Origin: Stramenopiles sp. TOSAG23-3 | Lineage: Eukaryota > Sar | Length of the DNA: 37,778 nucleotides | Assembly (NCBI GenBank): GCA_900128585.1 | Contig: LT642190.1 | Coordinates: 1 to 37,778, forward strand | Direction of reading: 5' to 3' | Shown: positions 2,348-23,962 of the stretch, piece by piece | Layout: each line of letters starts with the position of its first letter | Numbering within the stretch: position 1 is the first letter of the stretch | The notes under the pieces: generated by a model | The model's database searches: none | Told to the model about the DNA's origin: nothing | What the model saw: the letters and a program-made list of their open reading frames with translations, nothing else | Position numbers and translations under genes: made by a program

Positions 2348-3853
2348 TTAATTCAAAAAAATGCTGACAGCGCGATCTTTCGGTTCAAGTTCAACCCGAC
2401 TGAAGTGCCAGCGGATGTCAGATTTTGATACTGGTTGGAGAGATCCACTCCTTGGCCGAGACTCTTGCGTCGAGGCATTACGGTCCGCGAGGTCATCAAA
2501 GTCTTCGAACGAGTCTGTCGGCGGAAGAGGCATCGTACAGCCTTCGGAATCAAATCTCTCGAGCGATCCCGCGCGTTGTCGGTACCCCCCATTCTCTTTG
2601 TCATGCAGGGACTGAAATGTCTTGTAGCCGTGTGGTTGGTTGGTCCTGAACGTCTGAGCTACCTCCAACGAACCACCCCTTGATCGGAACTCTTGCTTTT
2701 GTTCAAATGGTGTGAAGGAACTAGTCCTTGACAGGCTCTCGGTGGTTGTTTCGTCGAACTCGAAGTCTCCGAGCGAGGTCGTGGACTCGTCCATGTCGAA
2801 GTCGTCTACCTCAACAGATTCACCCCTTGACCGGGACTCTTGCTTGAATGCATTGCGGTCCACATAGTCATTTTGTTCCAATGCCACGAAGGATTCAGTC
2901 CTTGGCCGGCTCTCGGTGTTCCTGCCGAAGTCGAGGTTTCCGAACGAGCTGCCCGTTGCTCTGCTCAGCGCCAGCAGCAAGGGGCCATCATTACCTTCGG
3001 GGTACACTCTCTCGGGCAATCCCTCTTCTTGTCGATTCCCATTCTCTTTGCCATACAGGACCCGAGATGACTTGCACTCTTTCGGGTGCTCGGGCCTAGA
3101 CGTCAGAAATACCCCCTCCTCGATCTTTACAGTCTTCGGCGACGCAGGTCTGGGGGAGAGTCGCTTCCCCTCCATGGAGACCACCTTGGAGACAGGTCGA
3201 ATGTTGTCTGGATCTGGGTCCAGCCTGTTTGTGACCTGCAAATAGCCGGCCGTGTGCTGCACCTTTCCCTGTCCATCGACCATAGCAATCTTCAAATCTT
3301 CGCCCCCGTTCTTTGGGCGTAGCACGAGTTCATGGTACACGCAGCGAAACGAAAGGCTGCACGATTCTTTCCCTTTCACAGCTTTCACCTCGGCCTGGTG
3401 ATTGTGCCGCTCACAGAATATAAGATCCCCCTGCTGCACGATAACGCCGTTCTTGTCGTAGAGCTCGATCCTGTCGAAGATACCTTTGCTCCCCGGATGC
3501 ACCTTGATGGCCTGGGTCGTGCCAGTCACCAACCTTGCATAAGTGTCTTTTATCACCATGGGCACGCCGTTCGGCATTCCAGGGATGTCGAACGTAGGGT
3601 TGGTGAGCGAGACGCTGATCGTGTCCTCCTTGAAGCAAATGACCGGCGCCTTCTTCTTCTGCTTCTGCGCCTTCTTCGCGCCCTTCTTTGCGTACTGCTC
3701 AACGTCGCTGATAAGGCACAGCGTCATCAAGGAGATCATGGACGTGGCCATCGAATGAGGCCTCACCTTCTTTTGTTTCGCGTGGTTCGAACGTTTTTTT
3801 CTCTTGTTGTGACCATTGCTGCCACGGAGGGCACTGTTGCTGCGCTTGGCCAT
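2348..3853 (-). CDS. Hypothetical protein with basic N-terminus and RxRxxS-repeat C-terminal half
   Basis: 501 aa from an ATG at 3853; family not recognised. Residues 1-70 are strongly basic (clusters such as NKRKKR and KKAQKQKKK), suggesting nuclear or nucleolar targeting (inference). Residues about 72-215 look like a compact globular domain (ICFKEDTISVSL, then FDRIELYDKNGV) of unknown fold. The C-terminal half is low in complexity and internally duplicated: about 265-321 and about 415-475 share DKEN/GKEN, then acidic text, then ESRPR-x-x-S. Five sites fit RxRxxS (RPRTES, RSRGES, RSRGGS, RQRAGS, RPRSGS), the preference of AGC kinases such as Akt. This is probably a phosphoregulated scaffold; function unknown. 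Confidence 0.75.
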   Translation of the reverse strand: MAKRSNSALRGSNGHNKRKKRSNHAKQKKVRPHSMATSMISLMTLCLISDVEQYAKKGAKKAQKQKKKAPVICFKEDTISVSLTNPTFDIPGMPNGVPMVIKDTYARLVTGTTQAIKVHPGSKGIFDRIELYDKNGVIVQQGDLIFCERHNHQAEVKAVKGKESCSLSFRCVYHELVLRPKNGGEDLKIAMVDGQGKVQHTAGYLQVTNRLDPDPDNIRPVSKVVSMEGKRLSPRPASPKTVKIEEGVFLTSRPEHPKECKSSRVLYGKENGNRQEEGLPERVYPEGNDGPLLLALSRATGSSFGNLDFGRNTESRPRTESFVALEQNDYVDRNAFKQESRSRGESVEVDDFDMDESTTSLGDFEFDETTTESLSRTSSFTPFEQKQEFRSRGGSLEVAQTFRTNQPHGYKTFQSLHDKENGGYRQRAGSLERFDSEGCTMPLPPTDSFEDFDDLADRNASTQESRPRSGSLQPVSKSDIRWHFSRVELEPKDRAVSIFLN

Positions 3854-5439: not shown

Positions 5440-8307
5440 TCAGATCGAGTGCTTGATGACTTTCCGCTTCAGGTCCAGCTCCAGGTTGTGGGCGGCAAAA
5501 TTTTGGGACTTGAAAAATTCCGACAAGTCGTGGATGTCCAGCTCCCGTGCCCTGCTCTTCAACAATTCTACACTAACTTCGACGTCGTCCATGTCATGCT
5601 GCTGCTGGCCGCGGTGGCGGCTTCTCAGCTGCGCGTACTGCTGCGCTTCCCGGACCAGCTGCTCCAGCACGTACATCAGCAGCGAATTGTTGTGCTTCTT
5701 GAACACCAAGTATTTTCTAAACTTTCGCCGCAGCGTCCGCTGGACGCTAAACTTCTGGGCGTCGATGAACGACTCGATCATCACCCGGATGGCCATGTCC
5801 AAATCGTCGTCCCGGACGTACTCCCGAAGGTGCATCTTTGCGTGGGCCTCGGACATGCGCATGATTGACTCGATGTGGCGGACCGTGATCGGCACGCCGC
5901 CCGCGTTGTGGGCCTCCCGCCGCAGGTCTGCGTACAGCTTCTTGACCTTCTCCTGGTCGATGTTCTGCAGCTGGGGCTTGATCTCTGCCCGGGCGAACAT
6001 GATGTACTTCCGAAGCAAATCCTGGGGGATGGTCTCCTGCCCCGCGTCGCCGATGATCCCCTTTTTGACGGGGGACTTTCCGGGCGACGCGGCGGGCGGG
6101 TGGTCTGGGGCAAGGGCGGTGCTGGCGGTCTCCTTTCCCGGGGTGGCCGCGTCGGCGCTCGCGGGGGCGTCGTCGGCCCCCTCCGGGCCGTTGGCGCCGT
6201 ACGAGGGGTGGCTGCGAATGTGGCTGCCGACGACGAACCGGGCGAGCCGCTCGTCCTGCACGGGGTTGACTTCGTCGATCAGGACGCAGAGGTTGTCGAA
6301 CCGGGACAGGATCGGGTCGGTGAGCTCGACGTTCTCGGCGAACGTGCGCTGGGGATCGTAGCGCCCGCCGATGGGGTTCGCGGCCGCGATGATCGCGCAC
6401 CGGGCCTTGAGGGTGGTGACGATCCCGGCCTTGGAGATCGAGATGGACTGCTGCTCCATCGCTTCGTGGATGCTGGTCCGGTCGGCGTCGTTCATTTTGT
6501 CGAACTCGTCGATCAGGCAGATCCCGCGGTCGGCCAGGACCAGGGCCCCGCCCTCCAGGGTCCACTCCCGGGTCACCGGGTCCTTCTGCACCGCTGCCGT
6601 GAGCCCGACGGCCGAGGCCCCCTTCCCCGTACTGTACACTGTCCTGGGCGCCGTCTTCTCCACGTACTTCAAGAACTGCGACTTGGCGCACCCCGGGTCC
6701 CCCATGATCAGGCAGTTGATGTCCCCGCGAACGTGGTGCTTGTTGTTGATGTTCTTCTCCCGGCCGCCGAACATGGACAGGGCGAGGGCCCGCTTGACCT
6801 TCTTCAGGCCGTAGATGGACGGGGCGATGCTGTCGACGATCCGCTCCCCGATCCGCGGGTCCCTTGCCAGCTCGCGAATGTTCCGTTTGTCCTCCTCCGT
6901 CAGCAAGTGGCGGGCCATCATGGTCTCCCCTTTCTGGATGAAGTTGGCCTGGATGACGGTGGAGAAGACCGGGAAGCCCTGCATGGCGTTCATCCGCACG
7001 TCGTACGTGTTCATGTAAATCCCGGTGACCTCGACCTCCTCCCCGGGGCGGGCCGTGTCGATCAGGTCGTCCAGCAAAATGACGTCCTTGTGGCGCGGCA
7101 CCCGGCCGGCCGGGACGGTCCCGGGGCTCTCCTGGAGCGTGAGCCGCTGGTAGTTCCGGTACAGGGTACGCTCCATGTCGATGGTGAAGTTGGCGCCCTC
7201 GCACTGGGGGCACATGGACGGCTTCGGGACCTCCTGGCCCTCGACGTGGTACGGGTCGGTGACGTACTCGCAGGCCATGCACTTGAACCGCATAGCTTTG
7301 AACTGGGGAAACACGGACGTTCGCCGGGTCACGACCCCGCCCACCTTGATCAGGGCGTTCAGGTGGATCTGGCGAAGCTCCCGCAGGTTGTCCCGGATCG
7401 GAAGGTCCGTGATGCGCACGAAGATCTGGTCGTGGATCTCCTTGTAGTCCGCGAACTGCTGGAGGACGACGTCCCGAGAGACCTCGTTGAAGATGTTCAG
7501 CATGTCCTTGGGCGCGTCCGCGAGCCAGATCGCCAGCAGCGGCGCGCTCCGGCTGAGGTGAAGGTAGGACACCTGGAGGCTCTGGTCGTTCGCCGCGCAC
7601 ATGGCCCGAATGCGCTCCTCGTAGACGTTGTTCTCGCCCTCGTCGACGTACATCCGAATGAAGTTTCGGAAGCGTTTCTTGATCTCCCGCCGAGGGCGCT
7701 CCTGGGCGATCCACTCCTTGAGCGGGACGTTGAAGTCGTCCAGGGCGAACTGGATGTCGTCCTCGTCGAAGTCAACCTCCCCCGCCGCCCGCTCGGCCAT
7801 GCGCCGGCGCTGGCGGGAGGGCTCCAACTCCGAGTGCTCGTCCTCGGAGTCTTGCAGGGCCAAGGGCAGGCGCTGGCCCTGGCGCCGCATCTCGTCCCGG
7901 TCCCGATGCCGCATTTCGACCTCTGCGGCGTGCCGTGCGTCGTCGGAGATCCGTTCGTACTCTCGCCGGTCCAGCCCTCGGCCCTCGTATGTGTCCAGAA
8001 CGGGCATTGCCCGGTAGTCCTGCTCAATCCCCTCGTCGACAAGCTCTTCCCCGTCGTCCTCGTCGTCCCCCAACCGGTCCAAATCGTTCTGGAGCGCGGC
8101 CGGGCCACGCCGGGCGTTCCCCCCCCGTCGCTGGTCCGTCCGCCGCCGTATCACCCCGGGGGACGAGTCCGGGGCGTCCTGCCCTGGGCCCATTGATCGG
8201 TTCGGCGCGCTCGCATCGTCGTCCGACGAGGACGCAGACGAGGCGCCGTCGCTGTCGTCCTCGTCCCGACGACGTTTGCGTCCAGAGGAGGACGGGCTGG
8301 TCGACAT
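5440..8307 (-). CDS. MCM2: DNA replication licensing factor MCM2
   Basis: A subunit of the MCM2-7 replicative helicase in the nucleus. 955 aa from the ATG at 8307. The N-terminus (1-100) is acidic and Ser-rich, with a basic stretch at 10-14, as usual in MCM2, where this tail is a kinase target and histone-binding region. A C4 zinc finger has Cys343, Cys346, Cys366 and Cys369. The AAA+ core has Walker A GDPGCAKS (536-543), Walker B LIDEFDKM (about 598-605) and arginine finger SRFD (668-671). HLSRSAPLLAIWLADAP and GVVTRRTSVFPQ are typical of MCM2. An Ala/Pro-rich insert of about 50 aa (about 703-755) precedes the C-terminal lid. Family length is normal (about 890-950). The gene diverges from the TM9SF gene across 1.75 kb. 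Confidence 0.97.
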   Translation of the reverse strand: MSTSPSSSGRKRRRDEDDSDGASSASSSDDDASAPNRSMGPGQDAPDSSPGVIRRRTDQRRGGNARRGPAALQNDLDRLGDDEDDGEELVDEGIEQDYRAMPVLDTYEGRGLDRREYERISDDARHAAEVEMRHRDRDEMRRQGQRLPLALQDSEDEHSELEPSRQRRRMAERAAGEVDFDEDDIQFALDDFNVPLKEWIAQERPRREIKKRFRNFIRMYVDEGENNVYEERIRAMCAANDQSLQVSYLHLSRSAPLLAIWLADAPKDMLNIFNEVSRDVVLQQFADYKEIHDQIFVRITDLPIRDNLRELRQIHLNALIKVGGVVTRRTSVFPQFKAMRFKCMACEYVTDPYHVEGQEVPKPSMCPQCEGANFTIDMERTLYRNYQRLTLQESPGTVPAGRVPRHKDVILLDDLIDTARPGEEVEVTGIYMNTYDVRMNAMQGFPVFSTVIQANFIQKGETMMARHLLTEEDKRNIRELARDPRIGERIVDSIAPSIYGLKKVKRALALSMFGGREKNINNKHHVRGDINCLIMGDPGCAKSQFLKYVEKTAPRTVYSTGKGASAVGLTAAVQKDPVTREWTLEGGALVLADRGICLIDEFDKMNDADRTSIHEAMEQQSISISKAGIVTTLKARCAIIAAANPIGGRYDPQRTFAENVELTDPILSRFDNLCVLIDEVNPVQDERLARFVVGSHIRSHPSYGANGPEGADDAPASADAATPGKETASTALAPDHPPAASPGKSPVKKGIIGDAGQETIPQDLLRKYIMFARAEIKPQLQNIDQEKVKKLYADLRREAHNAGGVPITVRHIESIMRMSEAHAKMHLREYVRDDDLDMAIRVMIESFIDAQKFSVQRTLRRKFRKYLVFKKHNNSLLMYVLEQLVREAQQYAQLRSRHRGQQQHDMDDVEVSVELLKSRARELDIHDLSEFFKSQNFAAHNLELDLKRKVIKHSI

Positions 8308-9839: not shown

Positions 9840-10057
9840 CAAAAGCAACGGCCACCATTTCATTTCCATCCATCCCAATAATAATAGTTTTAAATGAAGA
9901 CTAATAACAATCTCACAACCTCACTCTCTCTCTTTGTCTATCTTTTTTTGACCGATGGTTAACGTTTTAGTGTTCCTCTTTTCCCCTGTTGCCCAGTCTC
10001 ACTCCCTCTCTCTGTCTCCCCTGCCCTTCCCCTTTCTTACGACGTAAATAGTCAAAC

Positions 10058-11903
10058 ATGAGCGGACGAACGAGTACACCGACGAGCGGGCGTGCCATGG
10101 CGTGCGGCTGCCTTCTTCTCCTCCTTCTCGTTCACCCGTCCGTGGTGCGTGCCTCGGAGGAAAACCACGAGTACCAGGAGAAGGAGAACGTTTACCTGTG
10201 GCAGAATAAGGTCGGCCCGTACCACAACCCGCAGGAGACATACCCGTACTTTCAGCTGCCGTTCTGCAAACCGGTCGACACCCCGCCCGACCTTCCGGAG
10301 GCCAAGTACGGGGGCCTCGGGGAGGTCCTCGAGGGGCACGGGTTCGTCCAGAGCGGGATCGCCGTCCATTTCGGGGAAGACGTCCAGGACAGGAAGCTGT
10401 GCCAAAAGGTATTGACGAAGGAGGACGCCGACGTCTTCGACAACGCCGTGCGCCACCACTACTGGTACCAGTTGTACCTCGACGACCTGCCCGTGTGGGG
10501 GATGGTCGGACAGATAAACCAGGACACCACGCGGACCGGGGCGGACGTCGACGAGCGGGGGGCCGCGGACGTCCAGACCTTCGTGTACACCCGGAAGGAG
10601 CTGACCATCTTTCGGAACAAGGGGCAGATCATCGAGATCAACCTGAAGTCGAAGAACCCGGTCGAAGTCAAGGCCGGGGCCGAGCTCAGCTTCACCTACT
10701 CGGTCGCGTGGACGGACACGGAGAAGGCCTTCGGGACGCGGTTCAACCGGTACTTGGACAACACGTTCTTCGAGCACCAGATCCACTGGTTCTCGATCTT
10801 CAACTCGTTCATGATGGTCGTCTTCCTGGTCGGCGTCGTCTGCCTGATCCTCCTCCGCACGCTTCGGGCGGACTACGCAAAGTACATGCGGGACGAGGAC
10901 GACTTGGACTCCACGGAGCGGGGGGTCGGGGAAGACGTCGGGTGGAAGCAGGTCCACGGGGACATCTTTCGACGGCCGAACTACATCATGTTCTTCACCG
11001 CCCTCCTCGGGACCGGGGTCCAGCTCGTGTTCCTCATCTTCTTCATGATAGTCTTGGCGATCGCCCAGTCCGTATACTCGGAGCGCGGGGCCATGGCCTC
11101 CAGCTTCATCGCGTGCTGGGCGCTCACGTCCTTCCCGGCCGGGTACTACAGTGGCTCGTTTTACAAGAGCCACTTTTACCCAAACCCCTCGCCGGACTGG
11201 ATCAAGGTCTTCGTGCTCACGGCCACGATCCTGCCCTCGATCGCGGGGGGGCGTGCTGCTCTCGCTGAACTCGATCGGGCTGACGTACGGGACCCACACC
11301 ATCCCGACGAGTGCTGTCGTCACCATCGTGGTCATATGGCTCGTCGTGGTCGTCCCGCTGACGCTAGGGGGGACCATCTTGGGGCGCCAGTGGGGCGGGG
11401 CCTCGGACTGGCCGTGCCGGATCAACGCCTTCCCCCGCCCCATCCCGGCGAAGCCCTGGTACTCCCAGCGCTGGTTCCTGGTCCTGGCGAGCGGGGTCCT
11501 GCCCTTTGGGAGCATCTTTATTGAAATGTGGTTCATCTTTACCTCGTTTTGGAACTACAAGTTCTACTACGTATATGGGTTCATGATGCTTGTGTTCCTG
11601 ATTTTGTCGATCGTTACCATGTGCGTCGCGATCGTGGCCACCTACTTTTTAGTCAACTCGGAAGACTGGAGGTGGTGGTGGACGTCCTTCCTGGCCGGGG
11701 CGTCGACGTCCATTTACGTGTTTTTCTACAGCGTGTACTATTTTTTTGCAAAGACCCACATGCACGGGTTCTTGCAAACGGCGTTCTACTTTGGGTACAC
11801 ATTCCTGTTTTGTGCGGCCCTTGCGCTGGTGTGCGGGACCACCGGGTTGATCAGTAGCAAGTGGTTCGTGTCCCGGATATACGGCAACATCAAGATCGAT
11901 TGA
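10058..11903 (+). CDS. Transmembrane 9 superfamily (TM9SF/nonaspanin) protein, interrupted by a single-base frameshift
   Basis: A Golgi/endosomal nine-span membrane protein involved in sorting and adhesion-related traffic. It starts at the ATG 10058 (a second Met, residue 14, begins MACGCLLLLLLVHPS, a signal peptide). The luminal domain has the family signature NKVGPYHNPQETYPYF followed by LPFC. The frame breaks at a run of seven Gs (11245-11251): upstream reads to ILPSIAGG, and the family continues one base on as VLLSLNSIGLTYG to the stop at 11901. Dropping one G gives about 614 aa, the usual length, ending in KID, the KxD/E Golgi-retention signal of TM9SF tails. The second half remains conserved and membrane-like, so a sequencing or assembly indel is likeliest; a real mutation or a programmed shift is possible. 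Confidence 0.9.
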
Positions 11904-12089: not shown

Positions 12090-14549
12090 CTACGAATGGT
12101 TCAACACGCCGAAGAACCTGGCCATCCAGTATGGCAAGAGCCAGGCCCCCGCGTCGTCCTCCGACATTCCCGAGCCGGAGGCGGTCACGATCCAGGGGTT
12201 TCCGTTCCAAAGCCCTTGCATGCGTTCGTTGCTCGGGAGGGGCGGCCTGGTGTGGAGGGATTGGACATCCTTGACGCCGAAACGGGTCACGGCAAGGTCG
12301 TAAAGGATGTCCTGCCGTTCGGCGTTGCTCACCGGCCAACGGATCAGCTCCAATGGCCACGTCCGCAAATTCCAGACAATGTCCCGGACGATGCTGTCGT
12401 CCTGGTTTCCAGACGTTGCCAGGTAGATGGCGTCCCACAAGTCAGGTCGCTCGGGCCGAACGATTTGAAACGTGCGCTCCATGCTTGTCAGCACTGGCGC
12501 GCGGTCAAACGGGCACGTCGAGCTGTTCTGGCAGAAAAACAAAAACGTAAAGTATGGCAGGAACGTTAGCTCGTCGTCGCTGTAATTATCGTCGGACGGG
12601 GCCGTAATCTTCAAGTTCATCACGTTTTCGTTGTACTGGTTCGTCTCGTTCGTCAATTCGCGGTAATGCCCCAGAAGTTCTTCCCGGCACGTATCGTTCG
12701 CAAAGTGGTACGCTGCCGAAAGGTAGGCCAACATCTGCATCGAGTTCACCCCTCGGCCGTCGCTCCATGGACGAAAATCGTTCAATTGGGCCGGGTCCCA
12801 CTGCCCCCACGACGTTGGCTTTCCCGTCCAATCGATCAACTTGTACCCGTTACGGACAAGGCCAAGGACAAAATTGCTCAGCAGCGTTCCCGCCAGCTCG
12901 CGCTCGGACGGGACTGGGGACAGTTTTGCGACCAGGCTGAGCGCAAACACGTGCCCGGTCGTCTCATCGCTCGACGTGTCGCTCTTCCAGCTCCAACCCT
13001 CGTAGTTCGGGTTCGTAGAGTTGCGCCACTGCCCGGGTTTTCCCCCCGTGCCGCACTTTACAAACGGTTCTTCGCTGGGGGCACACAGGCTTCTGGCCAT
13101 CAGCCCACGAATCCCCGTCACCTCGTTCAGGCGAACCATCCCCCCAAAAAAGGTGGACGCGAATTTAAGATCTTCCGGGGCCTTGGTGATGGAATACTTA
13201 AAGTACCCTGCCGCGACGACAAGGGACGTCCACAACCCGTTGTTGTCGTTGTCGGAACACACCGTCTTTGAATTGTCTCCAAACGATGGCAGTTGACACT
13301 GCGCCGTCAGCCCGTTGCGGTTGTGGCGTTCCAATTGGATGGTTTGGAACACTTCGGCCTTGCCTTCCAGTGTCCACTCCTGCTGTTCAAGGACTGTGAT
13401 GCCCTCTTCCGCCACTGCAACGATCGTGTCCCCCATCAGCTTCGCGTCCACCTTTCGCGGGACCACCGCCAATCGTTTTATTGTGCTGCCGGCAAGCCAC
13501 CGCTCTTTGTGCAAATACCTGAATTCGGGGTCGCTCCCTTTCTCCCACACGGACAGGCCGGAAGTTGTCCCGATCCATAGCTGGGCAACGTTTTCCCCTT
13601 GCACGTTGCGAACGGCAGTTGCAAACGCAATGCAGGTGATGTTGGATGTGGGGAGGCCCTTGTCGCCGTTCACGGTCGTGTACGTCCCGTTGTCCCCAAA
13701 CCGAACATTCAAATTGTTCTGCGTTCCAATGAATAGATCAGCGCCGCCGTTGAAATCATTCGAAAATGCGAGGGAAGTGACCGTCGAAGACAGGACGCCG
13801 CCCGCACCAGATTCAATGTCTGTCACCCATTCAAACCTCATAATGCGCTCCGCATTGAAATAATCGATGTGCCAGAGCTTTTCACTACTTCCGACCACCA
13901 CGGTCGGGGGACTGGCCAACCCGCTCGCGGCATTGCCCGACACGGCGACGGACAGCAACGGCAAAGTAGACATCCCCGGGACTTCCTGGACCTGCCCGAT
14001 CTTTCCCGCAGCGTCGATGGCAACTGTCAGTAGCCCCGCGGTCCCAACGCACCACACCCTGGTCACCTCCCCGGCCTTCGTCTGGTCCAAGCTAGCGGCC
14101 ACGTCGTTGATATCGCCGCGAGAACCAAACGCTTTGCAGTCGATGGCTTTGCATGATGACTGGGACGCGGAAAACGAGCAGCTCAGCGAGCAGAACTGGT
14201 CCGGGGATGCAAACCCTACAAGCGCCCCGTTGAACGCGACGAGCCTGGACCCTCCCGGAAGGTCGGCCTGGTCAAACGCAACCGCAGCAAAGGCCGGGCC
14301 AAAGAACATCTTCCCCTCTGCCAACACGACGAACCCTTCCTTGACAGCCACCACATCCTTCCCTGGCGTAGCAGTAGGAAATACAGGCCAGGACGGCGGA
14401 ACGTTGGATTTTGCCCCCTTGTAAAGTGCACGCTGCGGGACAACTTCAACGTACGAAGCCGGGGGGCTAAACGCCGCCGACGCCACACTGACCCCAAACA
14501 CCACTACCACCAAACGAAACCACCGATTTTGTAGTAGAATTCCCATCAT
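12090..14549 (-). CDS. Secreted beta-propeller plus alpha/alpha-barrel-like protein
   Basis: 819 aa, function unknown. A hydrophobic N-terminus (about 11-25, ending near ASA) is a signal peptide, and several N-x-S/T sites and Cys pairs fit an extracellular protein. Residues about 160-400 contain short recurring segments such as LFIGTQNNLNVRF, LWIGTTSGLSVWEKG and TIVAVAEEGITVLE. These match the two-component-regulator-propeller type of beta-propeller blade. Residues about 430-820 carry SDNDNNGLWTS (432-442), WKSDTSSDETTGH (521-533), DWTGKPTSWGQWDP (573-586) and GRGVNSMQ (598-605). I recognise this helical module from large uncharacterised propeller-linked proteins of bacteria and protists; it resembles six-hairpin glycosidase folds (inference). 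It converges on the TM9SF gene with 186 bp between. Confidence 0.75.
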   Translation of the reverse strand: MMGILLQNRWFRLVVVVFGVSVASAAFSPPASYVEVVPQRALYKGAKSNVPPSWPVFPTATPGKDVVAVKEGFVVLAEGKMFFGPAFAAVAFDQADLPGGSRLVAFNGALVGFASPDQFCSLSCSFSASQSSCKAIDCKAFGSRGDINDVAASLDQTKAGEVTRVWCVGTAGLLTVAIDAAGKIGQVQEVPGMSTLPLLSVAVSGNAASGLASPPTVVVGSSEKLWHIDYFNAERIMRFEWVTDIESGAGGVLSSTVTSLAFSNDFNGGADLFIGTQNNLNVRFGDNGTYTTVNGDKGLPTSNITCIAFATAVRNVQGENVAQLWIGTTSGLSVWEKGSDPEFRYLHKERWLAGSTIKRLAVVPRKVDAKLMGDTIVAVAEEGITVLEQQEWTLEGKAEVFQTIQLERHNRNGLTAQCQLPSFGDNSKTVCSDNDNNGLWTSLVVAAGYFKYSITKAPEDLKFASTFFGGMVRLNEVTGIRGLMARSLCAPSEEPFVKCGTGGKPGQWRNSTNPNYEGWSWKSDTSSDETTGHVFALSLVAKLSPVPSERELAGTLLSNFVLGLVRNGYKLIDWTGKPTSWGQWDPAQLNDFRPWSDGRGVNSMQMLAYLSAAYHFANDTCREELLGHYRELTNETNQYNENVMNLKITAPSDDNYSDDELTFLPYFTFLFFCQNSSTCPFDRAPVLTSMERTFQIVRPERPDLWDAIYLATSGNQDDSIVRDIVWNLRTWPLELIRWPVSNAERQDILYDLAVTRFGVKDVQSLHTRPPLPSNERMQGLWNGNPWIVTASGSGMSEDDAGAWLLPYWMARFFGVLNHS

Positions 14550-16395: not shown

Positions 16396-17838
16396 TTAAA
16401 AAAAGCCATCGTTTGATTTCGAGCGGGTGCTGATTTTTGAGAGTTTCATGGCATCGGCTGCGTCGGCCTGAAGACTCAGCCACTTCATCGTTTCGATAAA
16501 TGCTTCGAAATCCACTCGATGTGTCTTGTCGCTCATGCGAAAGCCCTCGAGTCTCTCCAGCATGGCATACGCCTCGTCCAGTTCCAGGCAGTTCCCTTTC
16601 TGCATCAGCAGCTTAATAAGGTCATTCTTATCGATGGTGCTCTCTCCTTTCGCCAGAATCTTAAACGCGTCCTTTATGTCCGCCTCCGTATCAAGTCGAA
16701 AAAATCCTGCCGGCAGCGGCGCCCTCGCGTTCACGGCAGCAGGCAGCGTGCGCGGGTTCTCGTTTGGCTGTGGGACGGGCATGCAGCGCGGCGTGTTGCA
16801 CCGGCGCCGTGACAAATCATTTTTGCGGTGGATTGTGGCCAGCATATGCCTCATGTCTTTCTCACGGTTTTTGTACTCGTACCCCGACTTTCGCTTTCGG
16901 TAGTACGCATTCATTTCTTTTTGCAATGCTTTCTTCCGTTCGATCCGGTACAACCGCTTTCTAATTTCCTCCGCCTTCGGCTTGGAGTACGCTTTTACCG
17001 TTTTCAGCTTCATCAGATCCAGCCTGTCTCGAACGCGAATCTTTCTATTCCACTCTACCATCTTTTGCTGAGTAGAAGTCGCCATGCCTGCGTTGAACAA
17101 AAACACCTCCTCCTTTGCCCATGCATTTCGCCATTCTTTCTTCGCCGTGCTTGGTCGACTTTTCTTCCGAGACGATGACCGTGCCGATCGAGCGTTGGCC
17201 GTCCGGGGCCGGGGCTTTCGTGCCTCCCTCCTCCCCAACTTCTGCACCATTTTCTTCCGTCGCTCCTCCCGGTGTTCCTGCTTATGTCGCTTTATATTTT
17301 CTTCCCACTTGGTCTGGGCCGCAACCATGCGTTCTTCCTTCTTCAACCCCATTTCACGCGCCCGCAGCAAAAACTTGTACTCTTCGTCCGTCAACGACCC
17401 TTTCCACTTCAGGAACCTCTTGAAAAGCGCGGCCATGATGGGGGAATACTTGCACGCAAGCCACAAGGGCGTCTCTCCAATGGTGTTTCTAGCGTGGAGA
17501 TCGGCGACTTCTCCGGACCCCCCACCGTGCAACAACAGTGCCCCAATCCGTACGCAGTCACCCAGCCGTTTTGGACTCCCGTGGTGCTTGCGGGCAGCCT
17601 GTACACAGTAGTAGAGGGGCGTATTCCAATGCATGTTCCGTTGGTTTGCCGTATATTTTCGTAATGCCAAGTATCGTCTCACCAAAACAACATCTACCCT
17701 TTGCACCGCGGACCATATCGTTGCCTTACGGTCTTTCTTCAACCCAGAACACCCCTCAAATCCTACAGGCGTTACTGCCGGATCTTGCGCCGGGGTCAAG
17801 AAAGGGGGTTTCAAGATTTTGGGAGTCGGAGTCAACAT
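16396..17838 (-). CDS. Ankyrin-repeat protein with basic coiled-coil centre and degenerate EF-hand pair
   Basis: 480 aa from the ATG at 17838. Residues about 38-145 contain ankyrin-type repeats (WNTPLYYCVQAARKH; GETPLWLACKYSPIMAALF). Residues about 160-345 are very rich in Lys/Arg/Glu and probably coiled-coil, with a Ser/Arg patch at 213-235. Residues about 385-452 resemble an EF-hand pair of the calmodulin/centrin type (IKDAFKILAKGESTIDKNDLIKLL; then VDFEAFIETM), but the loops lack the full set of acidic calcium ligands. Such combinations are common in cytoskeletal or axonemal proteins; no specific function can be assigned. Confidence 0.8.
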   Translation of the reverse strand: MLTPTPKILKPPFLTPAQDPAVTPVGFEGCSGLKKDRKATIWSAVQRVDVVLVRRYLALRKYTANQRNMHWNTPLYYCVQAARKHHGSPKRLGDCVRIGALLLHGGGSGEVADLHARNTIGETPLWLACKYSPIMAALFKRFLKWKGSLTDEEYKFLLRAREMGLKKEERMVAAQTKWEENIKRHKQEHREERRKKMVQKLGRREARKPRPRTANARSARSSSRKKSRPSTAKKEWRNAWAKEEVFLFNAGMATSTQQKMVEWNRKIRVRDRLDLMKLKTVKAYSKPKAEEIRKRLYRIERKKALQKEMNAYYRKRKSGYEYKNREKDMRHMLATIHRKNDLSRRRCNTPRCMPVPQPNENPRTLPAAVNARAPLPAGFFRLDTEADIKDAFKILAKGESTIDKNDLIKLLMQKGNCLELDEAYAMLERLEGFRMSDKTHRVDFEAFIETMKWLSLQADAADAMKLSKISTRSKSNDGFF

Positions 17839-20137: not shown

Positions 20138-23100
20138 CTACAGTTTCTCTAACGTGTCTTCGATTTCCGCGGAAGTCATATCTATCTTGGAGTCCACCGA
20201 CTTTCCTGATCTTTTGGAGGATCGAAACAATGGGTTTTCGAACGACGCTAAGCTGTCCCTGATTCGGCGCACCGAAGATCGCGCCCCCCTGCCAACCCCG
20301 CCCGTGTTCGGGTTCAAACCGTTTGTGGGAGAGTTATTTTTCGATCGTCGGTTGTTTGACCTTCTCGAACCGTGCCTGCGCAGCTGCCCCGTTTGAGCGT
20401 CGCCGCAAACGCCTTCCAGCCAAGACTCGACGTCGGAGGGTATGATTGCAAGGTAACTTTGGCCACCCGTGTAGCCTTCCTCGGGCAAACGGTCCAGCGG
20501 CTCAAAGGACAAGGAGGATTCCTTGGAGGCACGGACGTACGTCGTTTGACTCACATGAGTCCGTTCCGGGACCCCTCCACTTTCCATGACCTCGGCTTCT
20601 TCTACCGTTTCCCCCCACACGTCGAATATAAACTTCTTTCCACCGACCACACCGCCAACAACAGCACCGGACGCGACGCCCACACGGATACGAAGGTCTT
20701 TCCCGAACGGCCCTTTCCCGTTCAATTTGTGGCGGATGTTAAGTTTTGCCATAACCCAGTGCATTCCTATCCCAAACTGCACCATCGACGCTGCATGATT
20801 CGCAAGGGGCGACAGGACGCCGGTGCAGGCAACGTAGCAGTCGCCCAGCGTTTTTACTTTATCGACGCCGACGCGCTTTGCCAGCTCGTCGTGCATGGCA
20901 AACATGTCGTTCAATATTTGAACCAGCCGGATGGGGACCATGTTGGTGCTGAACACGGTGAACGATACAATATCGGCGAACAGGATTGTGCCATAGGCGT
21001 CCAGAACGACCTGCTTGCCACTCTTCAAGCCCTCGACCAAAATCGGTGGCAACGAAATAAGTTTCCCATGCTTTCCCTGCTCCGTTTCGATGGTTTCTTG
21101 CTGCTTTTTAATCCCCATCAACTTCATGAACATGCCACGGTGGCGAGCGTCCAGTTTGTAGCCAATGACGATGCTCACCAGCATCATGTGGACAAACTTT
21201 TCCACGATAAAGTCTAACGTGTTGCTGCAGAGTTTGTTATCGTGCAAGCCTATGAAGCACGATTGGTTCGTGCCCAAGACGACATACAGCAGTGCAAGCA
21301 ACGTGCTCAAAACCGCGGCAAACAGGTACGGCATGGTCGAATAGGTATTGATCAGGGTCAAATAGAACAGCATGACCCAACCGTAGTAATGGGCTTGTAC
21401 GGCCAAATTCAAAAAGACCCCCCCGATGATGACTTGAAGCACGCTTCCGAGGATTTCCAATCGAATGTCGTACGACAAACGGGTAATGAAAACGTACACG
21501 GTTGTGATGGGGATGACAATGCAGGACGTCCAGAAGCGGGCTTGGACCAACATGTCCTCGTCGTACGCCCGGACGCGCTCCCCAGGAAAGCACGCCGTGT
21601 TGTTGGTCGTATTGATCGGAAGGTTGAGGTCCGTGCAATACTTCAACTTGGCGCAGGACTCTTCCGCATTTTCCCAGGACATTTCGCTTGCGGTGGTCGT
21701 TATCAACGGGTCGATGCACTTGTCGTTCATGATGTTGGACGTGTAAATGTTGTTCAGTATTGCTACGCAGCAGATCATGATGAGCCAAATGGTTAAAATT
21801 GGAATCGATATTGCTTCCTTCCGGTCTTTATTGAAACTGAACTCTATCCCGCGCAGCGTACCGCTTCGGATAGTATGCAGCACGGCACGGATAGGGTTCA
21901 AAAAGTTCATGGTCGCACGCCGCAGTTTGTCATCCTTTCGCGTCTTCTCCGCTTTGCGCAGCATTTCGTGCGCATCCACCAAATCATCCTTCATGGCAAC
22001 ACACTGTTCGCACGAGCGCTGCTTGTATATTTTCTGGTTCGAGCAGTTATCGCACAGCAGCCGACCGCAGAACCGGCAGTGGTGTCGCCTGAAACAGATG
22101 GTGAAGCGAGCGTTGCACTCCTCGCAATGTTGGGACGATTCATCCCCGGTCCACAAGTGCTTTCCAATTTTCAGGTCGTCCTTGTTCGCCATCATCTCCG
22201 CAATTTTATCGTTGCTGTAGTTTGCGATCATGTGAATCGGGGCATTCTTGTGGATCGAGCTGCGCCTTCGGCCGCGATCGTCGGAGACCCCGCGCCGCAA
22301 CTGGCGCTTGTTGACCCGGGCGTGCATTTTGTTGTTCGGTTTTCGAATGCCGATCATGGGGTCGCTGGCATCGCGCTTCTGCACGAACAGGAAACACTCC
22401 ATCATCCCTTTCCCTTTCACGTTGATCATGCCCCTAGACTCAAACTCGAACTCATCCTTCAAGATCTCCGTAGTCGCCTTGGTCGTCTGGATCCTGCCCT
22501 TGACACCGCAGCTGTACATTCGACTGGCAGTGTTTGCCGCGTCGCCCCAGAGGTCGTACGTAAAGTTCTGGGACCCGATGACCCCGGCAACGACGGGGCC
22601 ACTACTGACACCGATTTTGTAGCTCAGGTCATCCTGGAGCATGGTGCCATTGTTGAAATCCTTTATGTTCTCTATCATGGCGAACGCAAAATGGGCCATG
22701 TGGGAGGCGTGGTCGTCGTCTGGGACGGGCAGCCCGGCCCCGGCCATGTAGGTGTCCCCCACCGTTTTAATTTTCTCAATCATGTGCTTGTCCGTCAGGT
22801 CGTCGAAACGCTTGTACAGCATGTCGATGACTTCAACGACTTGGACGGTTGGGAGCTTGTCGAACAGGTCGTGTATCCCCAAAACTTTGGCAAAAATAAT
22901 AGTGACAGAGTTGAACTCGTCTGCGATCGCGGCGCCGTTCCGCAGCGTTTTGATCCGGGGGATGATTGCCCGCGGCAGCACCCGCTCCAACAGCGTTTCG
23001 GACTTCTTTATGTTCTCCATCAAGATCTCCTGCTCCTCGTCGAAGCTCAAATGCAGCAAGTAGTTCTGCAGCTGGAGCGTTTCCGGCAGCTTTGTATATA

Positions 23101-23962
23101 TGTGCTGCACGACCCACCAGCCGAACAACGGGGCGAGCTTGTGCAGTTTGTGCTCCCGTATAATGGCAAAATTGACGAGTTGGCAAAGGCAGTAAAACCC
23201 CGAGCCGTACGCGACCGTTTTCCACGACCGATGAACACCGACTTTTCCGGGAAAGTGGTGCACGGCGCTCACGAACAGAATCATCGAACTGTCGTAAAAG
23301 GTCGGGGCCCCCAGGGCCACTTCGGCAATGCCCGTCAAAATCGGGAACAACAGGTAGAGGCCGAGAAGCGCCCGCCTCTTGCTGTAGTCGGATTGGATTT
23401 TCGGCAGCTCCCCGTACATCATGGCAACGATGACGATGTTTGCCACCCCGTACAGGGCGATCGGCGACCAGCACCAATTGAGCCGCTCGGAGATTTTCAT
23501 GTCCTCCCCGTTCCCATTGCGCACCGCTGCGTAGTGCCCCTTTTCTAAATCATACCACGTGAAAACGATGGAGCCCAAGAACAAGATGAAGCTTTGGACG
23601 GCGTGCTTGAACTCGAGCGACCCGAGCATTTCGTCCTTCATGTTCGAAATATACTCGTCGTCCTTCTCTTCCGCTTGGTGCAGGAACATACTGTTCGCCT
23701 TGTCCATGCTCGCCTTCAGCGTGAGCGTCTCCGAAAACGTCAAGCGCTTGTGCTTTGAATCGAACATCAGCTTTTCCGACCCACGCGCTTTGTTGAAGTC
23801 ATCAAACCCCCCCTCCGTCTCGCTGCCCCTGCTCATGTTCCTTGATCGCAAGGTATCAGGAATGTTCAGCTCTTCCGCCATTTCCGGCGCGGCCTGGGAT
23901 TGCCGACGCACGCCAGACCGTTTTCGCCGCGGCCTCTTCCCTTTTCCACCGTTACCGGACAT
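20138..23962 (-). CDS. Membrane adenylyl cyclase with two catalytic domains in C2-C1 order and an internal FYVE finger
   Basis: Predicted to make cAMP. 1274 aa from the first ATG (23962). Order: basic tail; a first group of membrane spans (about 120-290); cyclase domain 1 (about 325-525); FYVE finger (about 604-655); a second membrane group (about 715-935); cyclase domain 2 (about 965-1170); Ser/Arg tail. Domain 1 lost the first metal Asp (FAK, Lys359) but keeps Asp403, the purine-selecting Lys399 and Asp470, and the catalytic Asn477 and Arg481; it is C2-like. Domain 2 keeps both metal Asps (997, 1041) but has Glu1121 and Val1125 in place of Asn/Arg; it is C1-like. One composite active site is expected. 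FYVE motifs WTGD and RRHHCRFCG are intact, implying PI3P binding on endosomes (inference). Confidence 0.9.
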   Translation of the reverse strand: MSGNGGKGKRPRRKRSGVRRQSQAAPEMAEELNIPDTLRSRNMSRGSETEGGFDDFNKARGSEKLMFDSKHKRLTFSETLTLKASMDKANSMFLHQAEEKDDEYISNMKDEMLGSLEFKHAVQSFILFLGSIVFTWYDLEKGHYAAVRNGNGEDMKISERLNWCWSPIALYGVANIVIVAMMYGELPKIQSDYSKRRALLGLYLLFPILTGIAEVALGAPTFYDSSMILFVSAVHHFPGKVGVHRSWKTVAYGSGFYCLCQLVNFAIIREHKLHKLAPLFGWWVVQHIYTKLPETLQLQNYLLHLSFDEEQEILMENIKKSETLLERVLPRAIIPRIKTLRNGAAIADEFNSVTIIFAKVLGIHDLFDKLPTVQVVEVIDMLYKRFDDLTDKHMIEKIKTVGDTYMAGAGLPVPDDDHASHMAHFAFAMIENIKDFNNGTMLQDDLSYKIGVSSGPVVAGVIGSQNFTYDLWGDAANTASRMYSCGVKGRIQTTKATTEILKDEFEFESRGMINVKGKGMMECFLFVQKRDASDPMIGIRKPNNKMHARVNKRQLRRGVSDDRGRRRSSIHKNAPIHMIANYSNDKIAEMMANKDDLKIGKHLWTGDESSQHCEECNARFTICFRRHHCRFCGRLLCDNCSNQKIYKQRSCEQCVAMKDDLVDAHEMLRKAEKTRKDDKLRRATMNFLNPIRAVLHTIRSGTLRGIEFSFNKDRKEAISIPILTIWLIMICCVAILNNIYTSNIMNDKCIDPLITTTASEMSWENAEESCAKLKYCTDLNLPINTTNNTACFPGERVRAYDEDMLVQARFWTSCIVIPITTVYVFITRLSYDIRLEILGSVLQVIIGGVFLNLAVQAHYYGWVMLFYLTLINTYSTMPYLFAAVLSTLLALLYVVLGTNQSCFIGLHDNKLCSNTLDFIVEKFVHMMLVSIVIGYKLDARHRGMFMKLMGIKKQQETIETEQGKHGKLISLPPILVEGLKSGKQVVLDAYGTILFADIVSFTVFSTNMVPIRLVQILNDMFAMHDELAKRVGVDKVKTLGDCYVACTGVLSPLANHAASMVQFGIGMHWVMAKLNIRHKLNGKGPFGKDLRIRVGVASGAVVGGVVGGKKFIFDVWGETVEEAEVMESGGVPERTHVSQTTYVRASKESSLSFEPLDRLPEEGYTGGQSYLAIIPSDVESWLEGVCGDAQTGQLRRHGSRRSNNRRSKNNSPTNGLNPNTGGVGRGARSSVRRIRDSLASFENPLFRSSKRSGKSVDSKIDMTSAEIEDTLEKL

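Follow-up and report, generated by a model that had tools for sequence, protein, structure and literature searches.

Gene and domain layout

The window analysed here is the whole of a 37,778-nucleotide stretch, contig LT642190.1 (positions 1 to 37,778) of the Stramenopiles sp. TOSAG23-3 assembly GCA_900128585.1, and it carries on its minus strand a gene for a putative adenylyl cyclase (AC) with a FYVE zinc finger between its two catalytic domains, hereafter the FYVE cyclase. The gene is a single uninterrupted open reading frame (ORF) without internal stop, its ATG at 23962 and the end of its stop codon at 20138, exactly the coordinates given in the first-pass annotation. From the N- to the C-terminus, the product consists of a transmembrane (TM) cluster, a first cyclase domain (D1), the FYVE finger, another TM cluster and a second cyclase domain (D2). 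Pfam matched PF00211 in two stretches of the 1274-aa protein (whole-protein E 1.4e-94, above the curated cut-off) and the FYVE family PF01363 at residues 604-655 (E 2.1e-12; 47.4 bits against a cut-off of 27.8), so that the cyclase with a FYVE finger between its halves, as first annotated, is indeed present. The features are listed in Table 1.

Table 1. Features of the FYVE cyclase gene and their positions in the window
Feature	Residues	Position	Strand	Observations
FYVE adenylyl cyclase gene (putative)		20138..23962	-	single ORF, 1274 aa plus stop
N-terminal basic tail	1-110	23633..23962	-	20% mean identity to the six relatives covering it
First TM cluster	111-300	23063..23632	-	four hydropathy peaks stand out clearly; the first, low-confidence model has about six helices
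D1, C2-like	337-533	22364..22954	-	K359, K399, D403, D470, N477, R481, K518
FYVE zinc finger	597-656	21995..22174	-	WxxD, RRHHCR, RxC, eight Cys
Linker from FYVE to second TM cluster, largely helical	657-710	21833..21994	-	44% mean identity; helices in model
Second TM cluster and stalk helix	711-968	21059..21832	-	five hydropathy peaks; helices in model
D2, C1-like	978-1178	20429..21031	-	D997, D1041, R1093; E1121/V1125 at the Asn/Arg positions
C-terminal tail	1179-1274	20141..20428	-	21% mean identity

By hydropathy, D1 is preceded by four clear peaks and five more lie between FYVE and D2, with one further peak (985-1003) inside D2; the same script gave five and six for an animal AC9. The predicted structures contain about six helices per TM cluster, the first cluster being covered by the low-confidence run only.

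Catalytic residues and purine selection

In D1, a lysine (K359) occupies the first metal position and the second metal aspartate (D403) is kept. All of the D1 residues named in the first-pass annotation (K359, K399, D470, N477 and R481) were found, and these, together with D403 and K518, are identical in D1 of every family member covering them. As also annotated, D2 has both metal aspartates, D997 and D1041, and lacks the Asn/Arg pair, the corresponding positions holding E1121 and V1125; the family reading is D997, K1037, D1041, D1114, E1121 and a hydrophobic residue at 1125. R1093 of D2 is invariant across the ten rows of alignment A2. The available part of a paper on the Toxoplasma enzyme discussed below describes a phosphate-binding arginine for the C1-type half (PMC6592433), and judging from its place in the motif R1093 should be that residue. 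Since the complete residue set is split over D1 and D2, one ATP site would be complete across their interface and the other degenerate. K359 and E1121, both fixed, would face each other across the degenerate site and could form a salt bridge.

The purine-selecting pair K399/D470 is of the ATP type, as claimed at first pass, and the same Lys/Asp pair was found in every family D1 scored. Such a pair in the nucleotide-binding half points to an adenylyl rather than a guanylyl cyclase. The two PF00211 domains, the full though divided residue set and a predicted catalytic pair resembling that of AC9 place the protein among the class III cyclases.

Order of the cyclase domains

In a phmmer search, residues 301-531 matched the C2 half of AC9 and residues 992-1142 its C1 half. 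Each domain was also aligned to C1 and C2 profiles, built respectively from the first and the second catalytic domains of 179 ACs with two such domains; these ACs were chosen by position from the hit lists and came mostly from named animals. D1 of the window protein favoured the C2 profile by 46.7 bits, as did all 21 family D1s scored (margins of 23.6 to 69.7 bits), and D2 favoured the C1 profile by 58.5 bits, as did 17 of 17 family D2s (38.3 to 58.5 bits); the short second-domain fragment of P0025 was excluded by a length filter. The two comparisons agree on the C2-then-C1 order that had been proposed. An intramolecular pairing of D1 with D2 was likewise predicted by structure modelling. A first model (18 sequences; predicted local distance difference test score, pLDDT, 61.6; D2 poor) was replaced by a second, with a pLDDT of 84, which overlays the catalytic pair of AC9 at 2.5 A over 425 residues.

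The transposed order with ATP-type residues, which the first-pass annotation set apart from the protist guanylyl cyclases, is not unique. Seven FYVE-less eukaryotic cyclases (P0250, P0262, P0021, P0022, P0244, P0246 and P0256) are also C2-like first and C1-like second by profile, with first-domain margins of 8.3-49.3 bits, and carry the Lys/Asp pair in the first domain; order and ATP residues together are therefore not peculiar to the FYVE cyclase. They differ from it in that their precomputed Pfam lists show no FYVE, and five of them (P0021, P0022, P0244, P0246 and P0256), unlike the FYVE cyclase, keep both metal aspartates in the first domain. Two further eukaryotic proteins, P0272 and P0276, are C2-C1 by profile with first-domain margins of only 10.3 and 4.3 bits; they have Glu at the purine position and no FYVE in their Pfam lists.

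Phylogeny of the cyclase domains

Trees of the cyclase domains included 12 animal ACs picked from the hit lists. In a tree of 88 domains, the family D1 set (100/98), the family D2 set (100/100), animal C1 and animal C2 each grouped separately. Animal C1 grouped with the P0021-group second domains (98/93); family D2, with weaker support, joined P0250_d2 (92/38) and P0027_d1 (87/87). A pruned tree was computed after removing 15 of the 88 rows, whose branches were long or whose partners were divergent (both Fulvivirga rows, ownGC_C539, P0254_d2, P0263_d1, and d1 and d2 of P0262, P0027, P0272, P0276 and P0250). In this tree D2 sided with C1 (97/91), animal C2 was the neighbour of D1 (94/81, not starred), and a topology forcing D1 together with C1 was rejected (p-AU 0.031). 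With the catalytic columns masked, D2 remained with C1 and the P0021-type second domains (88/84).

One possible explanation for the C2-C1 order other than transposition is convergence, in which the first half of an ancestral tandem duplicate lost its metal aspartate and the second half its Asn/Arg pair, independently of the animal ACs. Two of the tree results speak for it: the base of the 88-domain tree was unresolved, and animal C1 sat there with the P0021-group second domains and not with family D2; and a single clade of D1 and D2 was not rejected (p-AU 0.173, and 0.351 with the catalytic columns masked). D2 forced with C2 was not rejected either (0.174), and masking lowered the support for D1 with C2 to 51/58. 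Against convergence stand the placement of both domains in the pruned tree, the rejection of D1 with C1 (p-AU 0.069 after masking) and the large preference of the whole domains for their respective profiles. We regard convergence as a serious alternative, though the less probable one; a true transposition of C1 and C2 is tentatively favoured by these comparisons. The first-pass annotation had named a grouping of both domains with homodimeric cyclases as evidence that would count against it. The pruned tree does not support such a grouping, and a homodimeric origin of both domains was dropped on that ground; the full tree, with its unresolved base, is less decisive.

Conservation of the FYVE finger

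FYVE domains are recognized by the motifs WxxD, R(R/K)HHCR and RVC. The finger of the window protein has WxxD (W604..D607), RRHHCR (625-630) and eight cysteines, and its third motif, in which R649 and C651 are retained, reads RSC. The solved FYVE domains of ZFYVE16, RUFY1 and EEA1 match it (E 1.6e-10 to ZFYVE16) and share its zinc residues and those of the site for phosphatidylinositol 3-phosphate (PI3P). None of these three proteins is known to carry a cyclase or a 12-TM body.

In two listings of the best 120 matches each, 17 relatives combine FYVE with PF00211 (P0001 plus 16 others); of these, 13 have FYVE and the two cyclase domains together in a single record, and the other four are fragments. 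The architecture thus recurs elsewhere, a search for it having been proposed at first pass. P0001, on a separate JGI contig of 25,908 bases, is nearly identical to the window protein (100% after rounding), with a 3-residue insertion and one substitution. In the 14 FYVE-bearing rows of alignment A1 all scored positions were kept, except for Asn in place of D607 in P0013, in keeping with the annotation of a complete FYVE motif between the halves. Mean identity to the window protein over eight relatives, P0004 being excluded, was 70% for D2, 59% for D1, 54% for FYVE, 44% for the linker after FYVE, 24% for the linker before it and 23% for the second TM cluster; the first TM cluster gave 18% over six relatives. 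FYVE is thus conserved almost like D1 and unlike the linker that precedes it. No FYVE was found in P0025, a more distant relative spanning the region, or in the Pfam lists of the one-cyclase-domain fragments P0017, P0019 and P0243.

An assembly chimera, or an enzyme that is inactive or a guanylyl cyclase, was also considered. Beyond the unusual architecture nothing was found in favour of these explanations, which we hold to be highly improbable: the near-identical copy on another contig and the 16 other listed relatives with FYVE and cyclase rule out a chimera or annotation artefact, and the one full set of catalytic residues and the invariant Lys/Asp pair argue against an inactive or guanylyl enzyme.

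A scan of GTDB for prokaryotic relatives yielded two loci, one on a eukaryote-like contig (L013) and one encoding a distant bacterial cyclase (L014); a scan of viral contigs gave one bacterial-type cyclase (L015). L013 (JAIYDP010000396.1), in a record titled as a Verrucomicrobiaceae metagenome-assembled genome, contains a eukaryote-like cyclase gene whose pieces are separated by stops, possibly introns, and looks like contamination of the bacterial bin.

Cyclic AMP and phosphoinositide signalling genes in the same assembly

The assembly of the same organism (12.9 Mb, 660 contigs) encodes a regulatory subunit resembling that of type I protein kinase A (PKA-RI; an RI-beta chain matched at E 6.3e-69); each of its two pockets reads RAA, the cAMP form. 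It also has three PDEase_I matches, G-alpha genes, one of them full-length, and 62 matches to the cyclic nucleotide (cNMP)-binding family at E up to 0.001, some below the family cut-off. Together these genes make a cAMP response plausible. Two other cyclase ORFs were noted: C486 (on L005), with two cyclase domains and a weak AAA_16 match below the cut-off, reminiscent of soluble AC, and C539 (on L003), a single-domain cyclase with a guanylyl-type Glu.

Five PIK-domain ORFs were found, and the three compared with PDB (C498, C564 and C286) are class-I-like; among the kinase ORFs, C649 is DNA-PKcs-like. C498 (L025:577-6957:+, 2127 aa) is a class-I-like PI3-kinase with SH3, three cNMP-binding domains, RBD, C2, PIK and kinase domains; C7 (L026:1840-7653:-, 1938 aa) is a PI3-kinase-type ORF with a cNMP-binding domain and GAF; and C564 (L035:293-5536:+, 1747 aa) is of the same type with a partial cNMP-binding match. 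Their pockets read RTA (all three of C498), RSA (C7) and RAA (C564). RTA being the cGMP-like form, the idea of a direct cAMP-to-PI3K loop through C498 is weakened. In another ORF, C428 (L037:1647-3560:+, 638 aa), FYVE is joined to a PI3/PI4-kinase domain.

Comparison with known cyclases

The FYVE cyclase shares with the animal TM ACs (AC1-AC9) two membrane clusters, two class III domains, a composite ATP site and the Lys/Asp pair; AC9, the closest animal AC in a sequence search of PDB, has a similar catalytic pair to that predicted here. It differs from them in its order, the animal 12-TM enzymes being arranged TM-C1-TM-C2, and in its finger: animal ACs are without FYVE and have the regulatory C1b segment at that position. 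Stimulation by G-alpha-s and forskolin is a further trait of the animal 12-TM enzymes, and G-alpha genes occur in the assembly analysed here. AC9 of animal neurons is endosomal by virtue of an N-terminal dileucine trafficking signal, according to the available part of PMC11436756; the FYVE cyclase has a FYVE finger instead.

The inverted order is shared with alveolate guanylyl cyclases linked to P4-ATPases. According to the available part of PMC6592433, Toxoplasma TgATPaseP-GC has the nucleotide and transition-state residues in its first domain and both aspartates in its second, and the same topology has been reported for the enzymes of Paramecium and Tetrahymena; that part of the paper does not mention FYVE. 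These enzymes have an N-terminal P4-ATPase, for which there is no Pfam match in the 1274 aa, and a GTP-type Glu/Ala pair, where the FYVE cyclase has K399 instead of Glu.

Among the open-licence PubMed Central papers listed, titles and the starts of abstracts showed no precedent for FYVE joined to a cyclase, and the word cyclase is absent from a FYVE survey (PMC2837644). Of the initial statement that no described enzyme has this combination, the part concerning FYVE stands within that scope, and the C2-C1 order with ATP residues is not unique; the insertion of FYVE is the new and surprising part, the order being already known. In the available part of a genomic study of marine stramenopiles (PMC8163842), a 'nucleotide cyclase' orthogroup is among 28 indicators of phagotrophy; it may be the FYVE-cyclase family or another one.

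Neighbouring genes

In a tree of 40 rows (39 chosen from 120 listed matches, plus the window), the neighbouring MCM2 gene (5440-8307) was placed among 18 rows that form a 100/99 set and include sequences of a brown alga, a thraustochytrid and a dinoflagellate; the first named organism among the matches listed was Ascophyllum, at 55% identity. This placement by itself points to an owner that is probably a member of SAR, and likely an uncultured stramenopile. A cytochrome P450 fused to a cytochrome b5 domain is encoded at 31-2028 on the plus strand. The long minus-strand ORFs at 16396-17838, 12090-14549, 10052-11536 and 2348-3853 had no Pfam match at or above the cut-off.

Proposed function and alternatives

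Taken together, the observations make it probable that the protein is a pseudo-heterodimeric, ATP-selective membrane adenylyl cyclase of reverse chain order, whose FYVE finger retains or tunes it at PI3P-containing endosomal or phagosomal membranes. D1 would supply the adenine- and transition-state-binding residues and D2 the two metal aspartates, the two forming one intramolecular ATP site as predicted for the model and as animal C2 and C1 do. The finger, which would face the cytosol as the catalytic pair does, most likely binds PI3P and would thereby hold the enzyme at, or tune it on, endosomal or phagosomal membranes; cAMP, the presumed product, may then act locally through the PKA-type regulatory subunit of the same genome. 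As the protein is already embedded in the membrane, the role of FYVE would be retention or gating, not recruitment. The first-pass proposal that FYVE places cAMP production on endosomes is accordingly kept in part: the finger is conserved, recruitment as such is weakened, and the product, PI3P binding and location are inferred.

Several observations run counter to this interpretation. Only four and five clear hydropathy peaks were seen in the TM clusters; the AC-like pairing in the model was partly built in, because the alignment used for it (A5) held animal ACs; and the third FYVE motif is RSC, not RVC. P0004, 49% identical and with both cyclase domains, is without FYVE, so that the cyclase can persist without its finger. 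Finally, Vps34, the usual maker of PI3P, was not recognized among the five PIK-domain ORFs or nine PI3/PI4-kinase matches of the assembly, some of them unclassified; the assembly may be incomplete. The last three points would suit a FYVE finger that has no PI3P function and acts as a structural zinc knuckle or in dimerisation, in a cyclase of the plasma membrane. The invariance of the PI3P residues W604, RRHHCR and R649 in 14 rows, D607 varying only in P0013, argues the other way, and we consider a purely structural role improbable.

An additional scenario is that the TM clusters and other signals place the enzyme, and that PI3P on FYVE shifts the D1-D2 geometry, switching cAMP synthesis on or off as the membrane matures. 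The C1b-like position of the finger, the better conservation of the linker that follows it (657-710) than of that before it, and the fact that a membrane-embedded protein needs no recruitment are consistent with such a gate; against it, targeting is the main known role of FYVE domains, and P0004 retains both cyclase domains without one. A gate of this kind is possible, if somewhat unlikely. A wider version, in which a PI3P-gated adenylyl cyclase on maturing phagosomes or endosomes is one arm of phosphoinositide and cyclic-nucleotide signalling hard-wired both ways by domain fusion, is suggested by the cNMP-binding domains found in three of the five PIK-domain ORFs (C498, C7 and C564), and we regard it as unlikely.

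How cells make cAMP at one membrane and not at another is an open question. If the proposed reading is true, the built-in PI3P finger would let a lipid address or switch cAMP synthesis directly and would offer a ready tool for endosome-restricted cAMP, and the order of C1 and C2 in transmembrane adenylyl cyclases would not be fixed in eukaryotes.

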